Assembly (NCBI GenBank): GCA_947449255.1 | Contig: CANFQX010000004.1 | Location: 1-64,000 of the forward strand | Direction of reading: 5' to 3' | Length of the DNA: 64,000 bases | Origin: Pseudobdellovibrionaceae bacterium | GTDB taxonomy: Bacteria; Bdellovibrionota; Bdellovibrionia; Bdellovibrionales; Bdellovibrionaceae | In this document: positions 31,516 to 63,761 of the stretch, piece after piece | How positions within the stretch are numbered: position 1 is the stretch's first letter | How the letters are laid out: each line of letters opens with the position of its first letter | The notes under the pieces: model-generated | Told to the model about the DNA's origin: nothing | The model's database searches: none | Seen by the model: only the letters and a program-made list of their open reading frames with translations | Made by a program: the position numbers and the translations under genes

Positions 31516-31953
31516 ATGAAAAAAGCAAGAGCACCCTTTAAACTGATCCTCACCTCAATGGCCTTTATTTTTTGCACAGCCTCTTTGGCCTCTGCAAATT
31601 TCGAAAAAGGTTCGAAGGCTACCGACGAAGACTATGCTTCAATGATTAAAACCATTCTGGTAAAAAACAATCTTGTCGCGCAAGATTCCGACGTTCAGAA
31701 CATTAAAATTAAAAAGACAATTGCTAGTTTAGCTTTCTTTTTAGCCAATGCCACAACTGACAGAGACCAAGAATTTCATGTTCGCCAGGTTGAATTTGTA
31801 GCAAAAACCAAAACGGCTGCGGGTGCAGAGGGTGCTGTTAAAAAATACACCTGCAATTTGGTCGTAGAGATTCGTGGGCAAAACGACCTCAGTGGATCAC
31901 AGTTAGAGGCTTGTTATTCTGATCCAGGAAGCTACTCAAGTTTTTCTCTTTAG
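31516..31953 (+). CDS. Small exported protein under a sigma54 promoter
   Basis: A 145-residue protein with a long signal peptide (FKLILTSMAFIFCTASLASA, cleavage near residue 27). The mature 118 residues contain two cysteines (YTCNLVVEIRG and EACYSDPG) that could pair, and a beta-rich middle (EFHVRQVEFVAKTKT). No family recognised. Ribosome binding site TAGGAGAA precedes the ATG. It is monocistronic and expressed from an RpoN-type promoter, so it is likely induced by a specific activator, for example for flagellar, pilus, nitrogen or envelope functions. Which of these applies is not shown by the sequence. Confidence 0.75.
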   Translation: MKKARAPFKLILTSMAFIFCTASLASANFEKGSKATDEDYASMIKTILVKNNLVAQDSDVQNIKIKKTIASLAFFLANATTDRDQEFHVRQVEFVAKTKTAAGAEGAVKKYTCNLVVEIRGQNDLSGSQLEACYSDPGSYSSFSL

Positions 31954-31998
31954 AATAACTAAGGATTCCGTGGGTGAAAATTATAAATGTCTCAAGCC

Positions 31999-32050
31999 CC
32001 CTGCTAGCTAGTCCAATCCAATTAAAAATGGAAGAGCTAAAGCAGCAGGG
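31999..32050. terminator. Possible bidirectional hairpin between convergent genes
   Basis: CCCTGCT (31999-32005) pairs with AGCAGGG (32044-32050), with an inner AGCT/AGCT pair. It lies between the convergent 31516 and 32060 genes and is followed by ATTGATTTATT on the plus strand. No strong T run. Confidence 0.4.
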
Positions 32051-32059
32051 ATTGATTTA

Positions 32060-33064
32060 TTAACACTCTCGCATGGCGATTGAACTGTAGGTGTGCCAAT
32101 AAAGAATTTTTCTGTTTCTGTTTTCAGTTCTTTTGATGAACTGAACTAAGTAAGAAAAAACTTTGCTTGTGTAAGTCGTATCTAATTCAATATTTTCTGT
32201 GCTCAACATTAAATCTGTCAGCTGCTTAGAGTCTGCTTGCTCTTGGCCATAGGCCTCGAATTCATTTTCAACCAATTCAATATCTTTAAGCCGAATTGGG
32301 TTGTCTTTCTTAAAATGAACCAAAATTTGACTTAATAAATGATAAATATTGTATCTGTTGCAAACAATCTGATCCACGCAGCGCACGCCAATAATTTGAA
32401 TATTCGATCCAGTCATCACTTTTCCAGCCAATAACCCCGCCATTGTTCCGCAGGTTCCCGCCCCTACAATCAGTGCATCGGGCATAGGTATTTCATTGCG
32501 TTTCACTTGATCCATCATTTCCAAGAAAGCATTCAAATGCCCCATGGCCCCAAGCTCACTGGATCCCCCGGTTGGCATTCGATAAATGCTTTTATCAGAC
32601 CTTAAAAGTTTTTTACCAAAATTTGCGCTGGCTTTGAGGAAATTCAATGGAAAGGCGCCCTTGTGAATCTTAAGTTTGATGCCTTTTCTTTTGCTGGAGT
32701 ACAAGGCATGTTTTTCAATTTGATTGTTGAGATGTGGTACAAAATGATAAATTTTTACAGGCAAACTGACCCGCTCTGATTGAGCAGCCAGGGCGGCTAC
32801 GAAATTGGAGCCCAAAGGGGCTAAGGTCACAATAGATTTTGTTTTTTTATTTAGGGCATCACCCAGCAAAAACTCAAGATTTCTTACTTTATTTCCACCA
32901 TAGGAAATCGTATCCGTCAGATCTTCTCTTTTGATATAGATTTCGGAGTGCCCCAATTCCTTGGAAAGCTGGTCCAGCTTATAGACCGGAGTATTCTCTT
33001 CGATAAGTTGGGTCCAATTCTTTTGTTTTTCAGGAAAAAGACTAAATAACGGAAAAGTTCTCAC
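32060..33064 (-). CDS. PLP-dependent enzyme of the ACC deaminase/D-cysteine desulfhydrase family
   Basis: A 334-residue fold-type II pyridoxal-phosphate enzyme. The Schiff-base lysine is in YGGNKVRNLEF (about residue 58), preceded by IYIKREDLTD. Phosphate is bound by a glycine-rich GAGTCGTMAG segment near 204-213. This combination fits the 1-aminocyclopropane-1-carboxylate deaminase/D-cysteine desulfhydrase group, which deaminates small amino acids to a 2-oxo acid and ammonia. Residues that separate the two activities cannot be read securely. The middle region is unusually basic. Monocistronic, convergent with the small exported-protein gene. Confidence 0.8.
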   Translation of the reverse strand: MRTFPLFSLFPEKQKNWTQLIEENTPVYKLDQLSKELGHSEIYIKREDLTDTISYGGNKVRNLEFLLGDALNKKTKSIVTLAPLGSNFVAALAAQSERVSLPVKIYHFVPHLNNQIEKHALYSSKRKGIKLKIHKGAFPLNFLKASANFGKKLLRSDKSIYRMPTGGSSELGAMGHLNAFLEMMDQVKRNEIPMPDALIVGAGTCGTMAGLLAGKVMTGSNIQIIGVRCVDQIVCNRYNIYHLLSQILVHFKKDNPIRLKDIELVENEFEAYGQEQADSKQLTDLMLSTENIELDTTYTSKVFSYLVQFIKRTENRNRKILYWHTYSSIAMREC

Positions 33065-56111: not shown

Positions 56112-56144
56112 CAAAATAGGGTGTTTTTTGCGGATTCGTCAAGG
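56112..56144. repeat. Left 33-bp direct repeat of the ATPase cassette
   Basis: CAAAATAGGGTG followed by six T and GCGGATTCGTCAAGG. The same sequence with seven T occurs at 57897-57930 in direct orientation. It spans exactly the dnaJ promoter. Confidence 0.9.
56113..56142 (-). promoter_or_regulatory. Promoter of dnaJ, inside the left direct repeat
   Basis: TTGACG (56142-56137) and TATTTT (56118-56113) are 18 bases apart on the minus strand and share CCTTGACGAA with the dnaK promoter. Transcription would start at about 56104-56107, at or next to the start codon. Confidence 0.6.
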
Positions 56145-56290
56145 GGGTTCACACAAGAATTCAGTGTAATTCCATAAAAATGCACTAAATCAAATTTCAA
56201 TTGATACTTAGAATATTTGGCATAGAGGGACCCCCAGGATCCATCTTGTTCTCTTGGGTTTAATTCTCATTCTGCATTATTAAGACTAAT

Positions 56291-56337
56291 CTCAAATTGC
56301 CCAACTGATTAAAAACACCACAGTTGGGCAATTTGAG
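56291..56337. repeat. Inverted repeat 1 upstream of the ATPase gene
   Basis: A perfect 17-bp stem (arms CTCAAATTGCCCAACTG at 56291-56307 and its complement at 56321-56337) with a 13-base loop. The core arm TCAAATTGCCCAACT is reused by inverted repeat 2. No T run follows, so it is not a typical terminator. Confidence 0.92.
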
Positions 56338-56354
56338 CATCAAATATGTTGATT

Positions 56355-56399
56355 TCAAATTGCCCAACTACTACATTTTTACATAGTTGGGCAATTTGA
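56355..56399. repeat. Inverted repeat 2 upstream of the ATPase gene
   Basis: A perfect 16-bp stem (TCAAATTGCCCAACTA at 56355-56370, complement at 56384-56399), again with a 13-base loop of unrelated sequence. Its centre lies 63 bp from that of repeat 1, close to six helical turns, and 61 bp before the ATPase start codon. Confidence 0.92.
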
Positions 56400-56437
56400 G
56401 ATGCAATCCTTGAGATTGAAGAAAGTCGAGATTTCTG

Positions 56438-57874
56438 ATGTTTATTGGGCGAGAATATGAGCTAAAGCAATTAAACGAAATGAAAAAAAGCAGCAGAGCT
56501 GAGCTCGTTGTTGTTTATGGGCGGCGTCGCGTAGGCAAGTCAGCTCTATTGGAACAAATCATTCAAGGATCAGAGGATTACTTTTTTGAAGCAGTAAAAG
56601 GACTTACAAAGAAGAAACAAATTTCTCATTTTTTAAAGCAACTCGAGGAAATGACCAGAACAAAAACTACTATTGCTTCGTCCTGGCAGGAGGCCTTTGA
56701 TCAATTGACCCCCCATATTGAATCTGGAGCTCACACCCTGATATTTGATGAATTTCCCTGGATGGCTTCGGAAAAGATAGAATTGGTTTCTATTTTGAAA
56801 TATTACTGGGACCGCAAGTGGAAAAAAAATAACGAGCTGAAGTTGGTCTTGTGCGGCTCCGTAGCCAATTATATGATTAAACACCTTATTCATTCTGAGG
56901 CACTTCATAATAGAAAAACACTTGAAATGAAAATTGACCCCTTATCCGCTAATGAAGCTAAGTTATTCTTTAAAAACAAAAGATCTCTATTTGAGATTTG
57001 TAAATTTTTGATGATCTTTGGTGGGATCCCTAAATATTTGGAACAAATAAATCCAAATCTTTCTTTTGAACAAAACCTAGATAAGTTGTGTTTTATGAAA
57101 AACAGTTTTTTTACCAATGAGTTTGAAACAGTCTTTAAAGAACAATTTAAAACGATAAAAAAATATGAACCCATTGTGCAAATTTTAAGTGCTGGAAAGA
57201 AGACAAAAGAAGACTTGCAGACCCAAACTCAAAGTACGAGAGGCGGAGGCTTTGGAACACTCTTGCATCAGCTCGAAATGGCTGGATTTATATCCAAAGA
57301 AATATCACTAAACTTTGAAGTGGGACGTCGGAAGTCACGCACACAAAAGTATACTCTTTGGGATGAGTGGCTTAAATTTTATCTAACTTACATGAAAAAA
57401 AATTCTCGCTTAATTCAAAATCAGACAAGTGGTGGTCTCTCTGGGCGTCTTATTGGGAACAGCCTTCCCTCCTATTTAGGCTTATTTTTTGAAACCTTTT
57501 GTCAAAAAAATATCACTCAGATTATCAAATCGCTGAATATTGAGCCTGCAACTATCATCGATATTGGCCCCTACTTTAGGCAAAGTTCAAAAAATAAAGA
57601 GGGAAAGCCTCTAAACAAAAAAAACCAAGGCTTGCAGCTTGATTTGTGTATTGTCAGAAAAGGACGGATCATTACTGCAATAGAATGTAAATTTAAAGAG
57701 TCTTCCGTTGGCACTGATGTTATCAAGGAAATGGACGACAAGATTGCTAAACTTAATCTTGCAAAAAATATCACCCTAGAGCGCGTTTTGATTTCAGCAT
57801 CGGGAGTCACCCCGGAGGTTGAGGCATCGGATTACTTCCACAGAATTCTAGGGCTGGAAGCAATTTTTAACTGA
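56438..57874 (+). CDS. AAA-type ATPase_2 with C-terminal DUF234/PD-(D/E)XK-like domain
   Basis: A 478-residue protein of the archaeal/bacterial ATPase_2 family (COG1672-like). Walker A is YGRRRVGKSALLE (P-loop at 28-35), Walker B LIFDEFPWM (D104, E105), sensor-like LVLCGSVANYM, and the family motif FGGIPKYLE (about 195-202). A winged-helix region (about 245-310, FGTLLHQLEMAGFI) leads to a C-terminal nuclease-like core with D402 (LDLCIVRKG) and E416-x-K418 (AIECKF), the PD-(D/E)XK spacing. Biological role of this family is not established; links to mobile DNA or defence have been suggested. The gene is AT-rich, alone in its cassette, and preceded by two matched inverted repeats. It is uninterrupted, so probably expressed. 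Confidence 0.87.
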   Translation: MFIGREYELKQLNEMKKSSRAELVVVYGRRRVGKSALLEQIIQGSEDYFFEAVKGLTKKKQISHFLKQLEEMTRTKTTIASSWQEAFDQLTPHIESGAHTLIFDEFPWMASEKIELVSILKYYWDRKWKKNNELKLVLCGSVANYMIKHLIHSEALHNRKTLEMKIDPLSANEAKLFFKNKRSLFEICKFLMIFGGIPKYLEQINPNLSFEQNLDKLCFMKNSFFTNEFETVFKEQFKTIKKYEPIVQILSAGKKTKEDLQTQTQSTRGGGFGTLLHQLEMAGFISKEISLNFEVGRRKSRTQKYTLWDEWLKFYLTYMKKNSRLIQNQTSGGLSGRLIGNSLPSYLGLFFETFCQKNITQIIKSLNIEPATIIDIGPYFRQSSKNKEGKPLNKKNQGLQLDLCIVRKGRIITAIECKFKESSVGTDVIKEMDDKIAKLNLAKNITLERVLISASGVTPEVEASDYFHRILGLEAIFN

Positions 57875-57896
57875 AGACTTTTTCGAGAGCGCAGTT

Positions 57897-57930
57897 CAAA
57901 ATAGGGTGTTTTTTTGCGGATTCGTCAAGG
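57897..57930. repeat. Right 34-bp direct repeat with a spare copy of the dnaJ promoter
   Basis: Matches 56112-56144 except for one extra T. It keeps both hexamers (TTGACG at 57928-57923, TATTTT at 57903-57898, 19-base spacer) on the minus strand, now pointing into the 3' end of the ATPase gene as a possible antisense promoter. Confidence 0.88.
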
Positions 57931-59669: not shown

Positions 59670-60154
59670 GTGGGATCCACTGAGTTCTCTAGATTAACAA
59701 ACGCTAGAGATTCCCTCACTGGTAGAGCATCAAAGGTCAGAGTATTTCCATTTACCCTGTCCGAAGTAAAACATTTGCCTTTAAATTCAAACAATTTCTT
59801 TGTCCAAAACAAATCATGCGTGGATAGAATTGAGTCGGATCTTATATCCAGAATTTTGCAAGGTCTTTCAACCCTAGATGCACTTCAAAGACCCAAAGGG
59901 GTGTACAATTTGATTTGCTTTGGCAAAGAAAAGACGGCGTTATTCAAATCTTTGAAATGAAATATTCCGAGTCACCATTTAAATTGGAAAAAAACTACGC
60001 TAAGGCATTAAGCGATAAAATAGAAATTTTTAAGGAAAAAACTAAATTCAAAGGACAGGTCTTTTTAACGCTTGTTTCACCATTTGGCTTGGCTCCAGGC
60101 CTATGGAATGATGATATTATTGATAGCGTCGTTGATCTCAATGAAATCTGGTAA
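59670..60154 (+). pseudogene. Broken or fused ATPase remnant (AAA_14 middle, ATPase C-terminus)
   Basis: Two overlapping plus-strand frames. The first (59670-59960) opens GSTEFSRLTNARDSLTGRAS with RVFPFTLSE, the sensor and post-ATPase part of AAA_14/DUF4143 proteins. The second (from about 59890) reads GVQFDLLWQRKDGVIQIFEMKYS and ends SPFGLAPGLWNDDIIDSVVDLNEIW, a typical nuclease-like C-terminus of related ATPases. A frameshift or deletion joins them. No P-loop remains. Its last codons form part of the 60-bp direct repeat. Confidence 0.65.
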
Positions 60155-60195
60155 AAAACAGGCTTTTATCAATTCAGCCAAATCTTAAGCAACAC
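60136..60195. repeat. Left 60-bp direct repeat of the second ATPase unit
   Basis: Starts TCTCAATGAAATCTGG and ends CAACAC. It matches 61468-61527 at 56 of 60 bases without gaps. The repeat includes the last codons (LNEIW stop) of the ATPase remnant and the left arm ATCAATTCAGCCAAATCT of an inverted repeat whose right arm is missing here. Confidence 0.9.
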
Positions 60196-60208
60196 AAAAG
60201 TCCACTCA

Positions 60209-60240
60209 TGAGTAAAATGCAGTCAACTGCAATTTACTCA
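60209..60240. repeat. Inverted repeat before the AAA_14 remnant
   Basis: TGAGTAAAATGCAGT (60209-60223) pairs with ACTGCAATTTACTCA (60226-60240) with one mismatch and a 2-base gap. It lies 18 bases before the ATG of the AAA_14 N-terminal remnant. Confidence 0.85.
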
Positions 60241-60257
60241 CGCCAGTATATCAAGAA

Positions 60258-60368
60258 ATGAAGACTGAAAAACGTAATTTATCACCCATTGTGAAAGAAC
60301 TCTTGGCAAAAAAACGGTCTTTCAAGGGGGGACCTAGACAGGTTGCCAAACCTTCGGCTTTAAAGTGA
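60258..60368 (+). pseudogene. N-terminal remnant of an AAA_14-type ATPase
   Basis: The frame MKTEKRNLSPIVKELLAKKR continues SFKGGPRQVAKP, the start of AAA_14/DUF4143 ATPases up to Walker A (family GPRQVGKTT). The glycine is changed to Ala, and after the lysine codon the frame passes into the left arm of an inverted repeat and stops. So the gene was cut within its P-loop codons. Confidence 0.7.
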
Positions 60369-60388
60369 TCAATTAAAACCCGAAGGTT
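60349..60388. repeat. Inverted repeat 1 of the second ATPase unit
   Basis: AACCTTCGGCTTT pairs with AAACCCGAAGGTT with one mismatch, 14-base loop. The arm core AACCTTCGG is shared with the next inverted repeat. GATCAATTAAA beside the right arm reappears inverted at 60481-60490. Confidence 0.88.
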
Positions 60389-60440
60389 ATAGCCTTGCAT
60401 CTAGCTGAATATACTATGCTATTTTAATCTTGACAGATTT

Positions 60441-60482
60441 AAACCTTCGGTTTTGTCATGTATCTATGAAACCCGAAGGTTT
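60441..60482. repeat. Inverted repeat 2 of the second ATPase unit
   Basis: AAACCTTCGGTTTT pairs with AAACCCGAAGGTTT with one mismatch, again with a 14-base loop. It directly abuts the ATPase_2 fragment. A possible -35 TTGACA lies between the two repeats at about 60430. Confidence 0.88.
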
Positions 60483-60490
60483 AATTGATC

Positions 60491-61450
60491 TTACAGACAA
60501 GGTCTGATATCAATGTCGAGCCATTTTCAATTGCTGAAGTTTCTACACATTATTTTCCAAAATATAAACTTGAAGAGGTCATGTTTATTTATATGCTTGT
60601 TGGAGGAATCCCTTATTACCTCAACCAGTTTCAGAAAAACGAAAATTTTATTCAAACAATCAATAAAACACTTTTCACAAAAGAGAGCATTTTTTACGAA
60701 GAAGTTGATGAAATTTTGAGACTTGAATTTAATTCAGCAGGCATCCTCACCGTTAAAAAAATTTTGGCGACTTTAGGAATTTCTGGACGAATTCTTAATG
60801 ATATTCAAAGAAAAACTAAACTTGCCATTGGCACACTGAGTGAGTCTCTCGATAAGCTTATTGAGTATGGAATTGTCTTTGAAAGCCGTTCATTTTTTCA
60901 ACGTCAGCTTGAAATAAAACGCGGTGTAAAATTTAAATTAAAGGACTTTTATCTAAATACCTATTTTCAAATTATAAAGCCAAATTTAAATAAAATAAAA
61001 AGAAACACCGAGAATGAGTTACTTATCAATGGTATTTTCAAATGGCCACAGTCTTTTTATTATGTCGAAAATTTTTCAGGTGGGTCATTTGAAAATTTAG
61101 TTGAATATATCCTAATCTCTAGTGAAAAAAGACACGAAGGCATTTTTAAAAAATTTAATCTGGTCAATATAAATTTTGAGATGGAAACCCATTGGGACAA
61201 GGAAAAGCAGATAGATCTTATTGCATCTTCAACAGAAGATAAGCAAATGCGTTTAATTGAATGCAAATGGACATCGTCAATTGAATTAATAAAATCTGCA
61301 CTCCTTAATCTGCCAAAAAAAGCAAAACTTTTTGATTTCGAAGCAGCACCTCTCCTTGCCGTTGTTATTCCAATTAAAGCGACAGGCCCGATTCTCGAAC
61401 TAGCCAATCAGCAAAATATTATTCTAATAACACAAGAAGATCTAATTTAA
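60491..61450 (+). pseudogene. ATPase_2/DUF234 fragment lacking the P-loop
   Basis: About 319 codons remain. The frame starts within RSDINVEPFSIAEV, the strand after Walker B/sensor in ATPase_2 proteins, and keeps VGGIPYYLNQF, the winged helix (TLSESLDKLIEYGIVFE) and the nuclease-like C-terminus with IDLIAS and LIECKW (D and E-x-K). About 180 N-terminal residues including both Walker motifs are absent; the only upstream start is a TTG inside the hairpin. Thus it is probably non-functional as an ATPase, though the long open frame suggests recent loss or a retained DNA-binding role. Confidence 0.72.
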
Positions 61451-61467
61451 GTCCTTGCAGTCATTGG

Positions 61468-61527
61468 TCTCAATGAAATCTGTTAAAAAATAGGATTTTA
61501 TCAATTCAGCCAAATCTTAAACAACAC
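61468..61527. repeat. Right 60-bp direct repeat of the second ATPase unit
   Basis: Partner of 60136-60195, four mismatches. Read in frame it still encodes LNEI followed by Cys and a stop, a relic of the same ATPase tail. Confidence 0.9.
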
Positions 61528-61548
61528 ATGAGATTTGGCTGAATTGAT
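61500..61548. repeat. 18-bp perfect inverted repeat with 13-base loop
   Basis: ATCAATTCAGCCAAATCT (61500-61517) and its complement (61531-61548). The loop length equals that of the two hairpins at 56.3 kb. TTGTTTTG follows, so a terminator role on the plus strand is possible. Confidence 0.88.
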
Positions 61549-61658: not shown

Positions 61659-62933
61659 CTAAAGGCCTTGTCTTTTTAGACTAACACAGCGATCTTCAAT
61701 CAGTTCTGAGATTCGCAGGATAATTTTTGCTTTGGGATAGGTTTTTATTATTTCACTAGCAACTAAATCTTTATGCTTCATGAGTTCTTTCTTAATCAGT
61801 TGCATCCTTTCACTCATGGTCCCTACCTTAAGCCCAAGTTCGGAATCGATCAATTCAAATTGATTTTTACCTACACGGCAAGCATCCGTTCGATCACCAA
61901 TTTTAAATGAAAAATTTCTTTTTAATTTTGGATAAATTGCCGTACACATCAGATCATAAAATGGCGCAAGTTCAATTTTATCATATTTGATCAGGAAAGA
62001 TAAATTCTTTGAATGACTATCATTATTGCCAATAAGAAGATTAAAACAAATCCAGTCTAAATAATTAAAAAGCGCTGTGGCTCTTTGCTTTATCGTTACA
62101 TTTTTTTTAATGAGCTCAAAATTGTCTTTCAGTGTTGGGCCACCCTTTTCTTCATACTTTTCCTCACTCACTATGCCCTGAGCCTGGCAAAAATCTTGTT
62201 GATGGATCCGATGGTTTTCGCCGTTTTTATCTATAAAGCGATCATATCTTTCTGTAATAAAAAGCGGATAACCATCTTTCTCAAAGATAAAGCAATCTGA
62301 AACGACAAAGCCAATCGCCTTTGCCAATTTCATACAATAGAATTCGTTATAAACAGAATCTTTGACACCAGATCTATTTATAGGAACTTTTATGATATGG
62401 GTCGTGGGTCGACCGTTTGTTGGCAAGTAAAATTCATTATTCCTGAATATGCCCGCAAATTTATCTTGCGCTCCGGCGATGGAAAGAAAGCCTGGATCCA
62501 TCTCAGAAATTACTTCCGCAACTGATTTCTTTTGCTCGATAGCTTTATAAATTTTTACCTTATCTAATTTAATTTCCTTCGCCCCTTTCTTTTTAAAAGG
62601 AGATACCAACTCATGGGTGATTATAACAGCTCCTGCACAATCGGAGCCGAATTCATCCAAAAAATCAAATGTGCCTTGAATATGATGACTTTTTTCTAAG
62701 GTGTCGCGAGCCTCACCTTCGGGCAAAAGATTTTCAAAAAATGAAAGTGTGATTCTATTCCCAAAGGGCTCTGCCTGAAGAGGCATCGCCAAGCTCAATT
62801 GAAATTTCTTTGGATGTATGAGCCATTCTTTGCTGTAGGTAAAAGAATAGACCAGTTCACGATCTTGATTCAGCACTCCTACCAATAACTCTTCAAAAAA
62901 AACATTAAGATATTTGATATTTAATTTACTCAT
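61659..62933 (-). CDS. hipA: HipA-family kinase toxin (second system)
   Basis: A 424-residue HipA with all expected motifs: N-terminal domain (LSFFENLLPEGEARDTLE), the flexible loop LSIAGAQDKFAG whose Ser is the usual autophosphorylation site, the IIKVPI segment, ERYDRF, catalytic NNDSHSKNLSFL and metal-binding APFYDLM. It should phosphorylate a translation target when free of antitoxin. Its start overlaps the antitoxin stop by 4 bases. In contrast to the first HipA of the window the Asp of the AP-x-YDL motif is intact, so this copy looks fully competent. Confidence 0.92.
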   Translation of the reverse strand: MSKLNIKYLNVFFEELLVGVLNQDRELVYSFTYSKEWLIHPKKFQLSLAMPLQAEPFGNRITLSFFENLLPEGEARDTLEKSHHIQGTFDFLDEFGSDCAGAVIITHELVSPFKKKGAKEIKLDKVKIYKAIEQKKSVAEVISEMDPGFLSIAGAQDKFAGIFRNNEFYLPTNGRPTTHIIKVPINRSGVKDSVYNEFYCMKLAKAIGFVVSDCFIFEKDGYPLFITERYDRFIDKNGENHRIHQQDFCQAQGIVSEEKYEEKGGPTLKDNFELIKKNVTIKQRATALFNYLDWICFNLLIGNNDSHSKNLSFLIKYDKIELAPFYDLMCTAIYPKLKRNFSFKIGDRTDACRVGKNQFELIDSELGLKVGTMSERMQLIKKELMKHKDLVASEIIKTYPKAKIILRISELIEDRCVSLKRQGL

Positions 62934-63154
62934 TCTTCAAACTCCAAAACAATCTTAAAGCCAAGAACCTGTCCTATTTTAAAAAGAGTCGACAGCTTGA
63001 CCTCTCTCTCTCCAGGATTACTTTCAAATTTGCTGATACCATTTGCTGACAGGTCACAAAGCTTTGCCAGTTCTGATTGGGAAATCCCAAGCTCTTTCCT
63101 TCTCTCAGTGAGTGCCTTAACTAATTGTTCAATATGATGTACAGGAATCTGCAT
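62930..63154 (-). CDS. hipB: HipB-like XRE antitoxin (second system)
   Basis: A 74-residue protein that is nearly all helix-turn-helix (ERRKELGISQSELAKLCDLS, then ANGISKFES). It overlaps hipA by 4 bases. It is likely to bind the three CTCCC-N4-GGGAG palindromes directly upstream, one of which covers the expected transcription start, giving autorepression. Ribosome binding site is poor, which would keep translation low. The C-terminal tail is short compared with E. coli HipB (88 residues). Confidence 0.9.
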   Translation of the reverse strand: MQIPVHHIEQLVKALTERRKELGISQSELAKLCDLSANGISKFESNPGEREVKLSTLFKIGQVLGFKIVLEFEE

Positions 63155-63470: not shown

Positions 63471-63761
63471 TCACAATCTAAGCGCTCCCGGTAAAATGCT
63501 TGAGATAAATGGATCAGAATTTTGCTGCAGATCCTGGAATACCGTCAAATCTATTTTTTGCTCGCCAATCTGTTCCTCAATTTTTAGACGAATTCGCTGT
63601 TTTTCCTTAAACCCTATGGCTTTGGATTCTATTGAAAGATCAATATCTCCACCTTTTTTTGAGTCATCAGCTCGCGAGCCAAAAAGCCAAACCTTAGCCT
63701 CAGGATCAATGGTCAAAATGGAATTTAATATAGCTTCTTTTTCTTTTGGAGTGATTCTCAT
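63471..63761 (-). CDS. MNT-type minimal nucleotidyltransferase (antitoxin-like)
   Basis: A 96-residue nucleotidyltransferase-fold protein with the signature WLFGSRADDSKKGGDIDLSIE (GS-x-x-R then D-x-D) and a third acidic position in KIDLTVF. Such proteins are usually MntA-type antitoxins that AMPylate a HEPN toxin (HepT), encoded next to them. No HEPN gene follows within 300 bases downstream, and upstream there is an ATPase fragment instead, so the pair is either broken or the partner is not a HEPN protein. It lies 32 bases after the stop of the ATPase gene at the right edge. Confidence 0.82.
   Translation of the reverse strand: MRITPKEKEAILNSILTIDPEAKVWLFGSRADDSKKGGDIDLSIESKAIGFKEKQRIRLKIEEQIGEQKIDLTVFQDLQQNSDPFISSILPGALRL

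Follow-up and report, generated by a model that had tools for sequence, protein, structure and literature searches.

Paired inverted repeats at the predicted promoter of a mobile ATPase-nuclease gene are a probable private operator

The ATPase-nuclease gene and its paired repeats

The window (the whole 64,000-nucleotide stretch of Pseudobdellovibrionaceae DNA that was analysed) carries an ATPase-nuclease gene that is preceded by two inverted repeats and flanked by two copies of a dnaJ promoter sequence. The features of this locus are as follows.

56112–56144, no strand assigned: left copy of the duplicated target, 33/34 bp of dnaJ promoter sequence, still serving dnaJ on the minus strand (direct repeat)
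56145–57896, plus strand: inferred inserted unit of 1752 bp, comprising leader, paired inverted repeats and ATPase gene (from the flanking repeats and the empty site)
56291–56337, no strand assigned: inverted repeat 1 (IR1), half-sites 1 and 2, arm CTCAAATTGCCCAACTG, loop of 13 bases (repeat search)
56349–56377, plus strand: predicted sigma-70-type promoter of the ATPase gene, TTGATT-17-TACATT, with half-site 3 in the spacer (consensus match only)
56352–56402, no strand assigned: inverted repeat 2 (IR2), half-sites 3 and 4, arm as in IR1, loop of 13 bases, centre 63 bp from that of IR1 (repeat search)
56438–57874, plus strand: ATPase_2/winged-helix/PD-(D/E)XK (DUF234) gene, 478 aa, PADLOC family PDC-S27 (profile matches)
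57176–57355, plus strand: predicted winged-helix domain, residues ~247–306, with helices at 257–264 and 270–281 (AlphaFold model)
57897–57930, no strand assigned: right copy of the duplicated target, 34 bp, 97% identical (direct repeat)

The gene at 56438–57874 matched the ATPase_2, AAA_14 and DUF234 models in profile searches, and the PDC-S27 profile covered residues 2–477 of its product, that is, the whole length (E 2.1e-94), which places the protein in that family. The Walker A and B and D-ExK residues (G33, K34, D104, E105, D402, E416 and K418) were invariant in 24 homologues. A search by sequence found no solved structure. Its AlphaFold model had a mean pLDDT of 91 with a winged helix at residues ~247–306, and the nearest solved folds were the archaeal ATPases 2QEN (Z 20.7) and 2FNA (Z 19.2), followed by NLR, ORC and TnsC ATPases; the combination of AAA+ and winged-helix folds seen in Orc1/Cdc6 was present in the model by structure comparison. 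Two further full homologues and two fragments were found in the same genome, and none in the other genomes of the genus that were searched.

A repeat search of the window bore out the original prediction that the two inverted repeats have one arm in common, 13-base loops and centres 63 bp apart, and that their loops are unrelated, since the two loop sequences showed no resemblance. The arms of IR1 (56291–56307 and 56321–56337) match at 100% over 17 bp, and the core arms of IR2 lie at 56355–56370 and 56384–56399. The predicted extent stood except at its end: extended at 95% to 56352–56370 and 56384–56402, IR2 runs a few bases further, to 56402. The spacing of the direct repeats is likewise 63 bp. 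The 15-mer TCAAATTGCCCAACT had exactly four matches in the window at ≤2 mismatches, all of them exact copies; shuffled sequence gave 0.5 on average and never more than 3. The repeats lie ~38–147 bp from the ATG (56438), in agreement with the position before the ATPase start that had been claimed.

In relatives, an empty site was found in which dnaJ and a TPR gene are adjacent and the 34-bp sequence occurs once. The flanking duplications and this empty site together show that the paired site and the gene move as one unit. The target was duplicated at insertion, as by a transposon, over 34 bp here and over other lengths elsewhere: direct repeats of 24 to ~350 bp lie outside the unit of two inverted repeats and gene at ~10% of the loci. 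At the 16 tabulated loci that have a direct repeat distinct from the inverted repeats, it lies outside the pair, in some cases ending 1–22 bp before IR1 (L030, L079, L055, L068 and L208). A standard transposase would not be expected to leave duplications of such variable length, and no transposase domain was found in the gene product, which only ATPase, AAA and DUF234 models matched. The possibility that the site represents the terminal inverted repeats of an insertion sequence was ruled out, as most loci have no matching downstream copy. The right copy of the target at 57897–57930 is a spare dnaJ promoter directed antisense into the ATPase gene, and could yield antisense RNA.

The window contains a second, N-truncated ATPase_2/DUF234 element at 60197–61459 (60128–61548 with its surroundings), whose insertion point is the 3' end of what looks like the remnant of an AAA_14/DUF4143-like gene. 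A 69-bp direct repeat (91%) bounds it on both sides, and it carries a separate pair of inverted repeats, with the arm AAACCTTCGG and centres 93 bp apart. A HipBA-like pair (61659–63154) and a small nucleotidyltransferase gene (63471–63761) adjoin the ATPase elements, which suggests that this stretch is accessory or defence-rich.

Geometry and letters of the sites at homologous loci

We scanned homologous loci for four agreeing half-sites, 80 of them taken from genomes of bacteria and archaea and 4 from viral contigs. A second set of 60 loci was drawn from nine genomes that belong to the phylum of the window genome; many copies are present in most of these nine. The total of 145 loci includes two duplicates (L224 = L018 and L211 = L071). 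Four matching half-sites were present upstream of the ATPase gene at 88 of the 145 loci (49/85 in the first set and 39/60 in the second), scoring above each of the 340 shuffles and every gene-internal control; the paired repeats that the original prediction proposed to look for upstream of homologues are thus carried by most of them, and their absence, which would have spoken against it, was not observed. Among downstream control stretches, one in each set exceeded the threshold (L059 and L232). Two scans of the first set placed 53/85 and 49/85 loci over the control maxima, with a union of 56. About 40% of the loci had no site over the threshold, and many of these still gave their best weak match at 54–55 bp. 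In the window genome, each of the two full paralogues is directly preceded by paired repeats of its own, with differing arms.

When the sites were aligned on their dyads, the half-sites agreed only at 7–18 bp from the dyad and the loop was free. Positions 12–15 agreed in 91–98% of the loci and position 16 in 79%. The two dyads were 53–58 bp apart in 73 of the 88 loci, with a peak at 54–55 bp and a family norm of 54–56 bp, and smaller groups occurred at 40, 58–59, 63 and 71–72 bp. The spacing of 63 bp, from which six helical turns and binding on one face of the DNA had been proposed, is therefore particular to the window locus, and strict six-turn phasing as a family rule is excluded by this distribution. 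Five loci (L013, L083, L053, L045 and L067) had a third repeat at a period of ~54–56 bp and form arrays of three.

The layout was not found in the haloarchaeal plasmid relatives that were scanned. Among 17 scanned loci of the sister family PDC-S01 (DUF4143) one had a strong paired site, the others lying at or barely above shuffle level. This one, a gene of the window genome (L257; G000:C2 near 31811–32266), has a paired inverted repeat, TCCGGAAATGG, spaced 61 bp apart. In two distant relatives on plasmids of Emticicia and Butyrivibrio (L248 and L249), apparently just the two inner half-sites are present upstream, with identical letters in the two phyla (TTGGCGGAAT / ATTCCGCCAA).

The layout is shared, and the letters are private to each copy. 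Mean half-site similarity was 0.89 within a locus; it fell to 0.35 when paralogues of one genome were compared and to 0.34 across genomes. Paralogues therefore have no common sites, and the between-genome value is not that of a box sequence that different species have in common, as an Orc1/Cdc6-ORB system would need. Close relatives differ in all four half-sites at once, as in CCCCGG versus TACCGG upstream of 67%-identical proteins (L236/L071). We read this four-way concerted change as concerted evolution with a dedicated reader.

Promoter overlap, the putative reader and the role of the site

Promoter-like scores in the surveyed loci were above those of shuffles (p ~1e-15); these are consensus matches, and the scored region includes the repeats. 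The −10 boxes of the predicted promoters were enriched between or inside the repeats. Symmetric sites of fixed geometry accordingly lie at the gene's own promoter, as far as promoters are defined by consensus.

The part of the protein that co-varies with the site was sought with a Mantel test of half-site similarity against protein-window similarity, run on 78 loci with a correction for overall identity. Residues 251–270 (p 0.004) and 261–280 (p 0.006) gave the best windows, the p-values being nominal for 48 windows scanned. Among single columns, 257 ranked first and 268 third, and 252, 255, 269 and 271 were also in the top 16, so that 6 of these 16 fell within 248–282 (hypergeometric p 0.0008). 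The model places the co-varying residues around the start of the two HTH helices, with 257 and 268 predicted at the DNA-facing edge of the winged helix. The observed pairings (R/K257 with C at position 14, R268 with C at 12, and D271 with C at 15, the last in 10/11) are chemically plausible and would provide a candidate residue-base code. Because columns outside the winged helix (64, 80, 147, 173 and 372) score as well, the support for the winged helix as reader of the half-sites is good but not conclusive, and of moderate strength. Raw residue-base mutual information was dropped as proof, as it was dominated by relatedness and its top matches fell at 146–160, with no concentration in the winged helix.

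We consider it likely that the paired repeats are a private operator, whose four half-sites would be bound by the winged helix of the downstream ATPase-nuclease, most likely in autorepression. This is close to the original prediction, in which a protein, probably the ATPase, would use the four half-sites for autoregulation, a reading that the comparative evidence favours. One dimer per repeat is the most likely occupancy, giving two dimers per pair on or beside the gene's promoter. Half-site 3 lies in the spacer of the predicted promoter; occupied half-sites would hold expression low and so restrain a potentially harmful NLR/STAND-like ATPase-nuclease; the operator may also park the protein at its own gene. 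Since each copy would read its own letters, several copies could share a cell without cross-regulation.

The main rival reading is that the repeats are a cis-acting mobility site (an end, homing or origin-like site) read by the ATPase-nuclease for insertion or copying, with regulation secondary or absent. We regard this as unlikely; the operator and mobility roles could coexist. In its favour, gene and sites behave as one inserted unit, with direct repeats outside the paired inverted repeats and, for the insertion in the window, relatives in which the site is clearly empty. The protein is folded much like ORC/Cdc6 and TnsC ATPases, its nuclease motif does not vary among the homologues compared, and the family is distributed patchily, in bursts of up to ~20 copies with many decayed fragments. 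At eight loci (L059, L078, L021, L039, L054, L056, L218 and L232) the gene has inverted repeats with the same arm both before and after it, one or two in each position, and such downstream copies, which an operator does not need, count against a simple operator. Recognition as an end is conceivable, because the site travels with the gene and a few relatives are flanked at both gene ends. However, both repeats are on the promoter side with none downstream at most loci, the right boundary has no matching site, the duplications of 24 to ~350 bp are unlike fixed cleavage at a site, the overlap of repeats and promoter is above chance, and the target in the window, a dnaJ promoter, is unlike the site. 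A wider view, which we consider unlikely, is that in a very large family of single-gene mobile ATPase-nucleases each member has a private four-half-site address, which would be read by its own winged helix and would evolve in concert with the protein, so that copies do not see one another; the address might serve both as off-switch and as address for insertion with variable-length duplication.

It is very improbable that the repeats work as RNA, either as 5'-leader hairpins controlling translation or as an RNA antitoxin of the type III toxin-antitoxin kind. As RNA, the segment in the window would fold very stably (−64.6 kcal/mol, z −11), as any perfect palindrome would, and IR2 abuts the start codon in several loci (L004 and L005). 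In contrast to what RNA pairing would leave behind, half-site mismatches showed no preference for the G·U type over the A·C type (44 versus 48, p = 0.75), pairing was held at a fixed distance from the dyad with loops that do not shrink, and an Rfam search gave no match. At L085, L048 and L239 the best promoter lies 3' of both repeats, which would therefore be untranscribed there. At the window locus the consensus promoter predicts a transcription start at ~56384, within IR2, so that neither hairpin would be complete in the mRNA. Mismatch bias, geometry and promoter position together disfavour the RNA hairpins that had been offered as an alternative, and a type III toxin-antitoxin system with its upstream repeats as structured RNA was rejected on the absent G·U bias and the promoters 3' of the repeats at some loci.

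A generic dispersed palindromic repeat (REP/MITE-like) lying there by chance would suit palindromes in an intergenic region of the inserted unit, but its probability is negligible: genome-wide searches confined the paired pattern to the window locus in the whole 3.2-Mb genome, with only three scattered single matches to the 14-base arm elsewhere at ≤1 mismatch, and the identical layout recurs in other letters at homologues. REP/RAYT and MITE elements were excluded by this lack of dispersal, and the arm is not shared by many unrelated loci, a finding that would have told against the original prediction.

Relation to PDC-S27 and to known systems

PDC-S27 is a putative phage-defence candidate of PADLOC that is treated in PMC12988326. 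The protein in the window resembles it in the ATPase domain combined with PD-(D/E)XK, the single gene and the patchy distribution. It differs in the cis-acting site found here, for the passages on the family in the literature found do not mention a cis-acting site or DNA specificity; nor did the literature searched, which covered few subscription papers and no bioRxiv, state what PDC-S27 binds or how it is controlled. PDC-S27 is a suspected defence family, and the defence role of the ATPase is that of a candidate only.

Other occurrences were noted during the survey. A PDC-S27-type gene is present in a genome of Wolbachia (L033). The family also occurs in the IMG/VR viral contigs L091–L093, whose paired-site letters are identical to those of a Rickettsiales copy (L027) and whose protein is >90% identical to it. 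DUF4143 ATPase genes reach very high copy number, with 17 in the window genome (G000) and 76 in G353; in G000, G118, G119, G210 and G353, many of them occur beside numerous PDC-S27 copies and decayed fragments.

If the operator reading holds, the site layout would show how a large suspected phage-defence family probably controls itself. The promoter site and the candidate three-position winged-helix code offer a ready substrate for binding, repression and cleavage assays, and the ATPase/site pairs may amount to a natural library of orthogonal DNA-binding pairs. Because the gene, as the duplicated target and the empty site show, travels together with its site, the question of defence versus selfishness becomes testable.

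Tandem palindromic operators of autorepressors, and AAA+/winged-helix initiators beside their own boxes, are already known. What appears to be new is an operator private to each copy in a family of mobile ATPase-nucleases, together with a candidate residue-base code, as no report of such an operator was found in the same limited literature. Archaeal Orc1/Cdc6 initiators have inverted ORB boxes beside their own gene; the boxes are widely conserved across species and mark origins of replication. The protein in the window is similar in being an AAA+ ATPase with a winged helix and inverted boxes adjoining its own gene, whereas the letters of its family vary from copy to copy and it has a nuclease domain. 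Controller (C) proteins of restriction-modification systems, like other autorepressors, bind two tandem palindromic operators. The likeness lies in two palindromes at the gene's own promoter and in keeping under control a nuclease that is potentially toxic and is carried on a mobile unit; in contrast, the protein in the window would combine DNA reader, ATPase motor and nuclease, and its half-sites are ~28 bp apart in each palindrome. With STAND/NLR ATPases (2QEN, 2FNA, and plant and animal NLRs) it shares the nucleotide-binding domain and winged helix. The winged helix of plant and animal NLRs serves chiefly as a switch element, whereas that of the ATPase in the window appears, from its co-variation with the half-sites, to read DNA.
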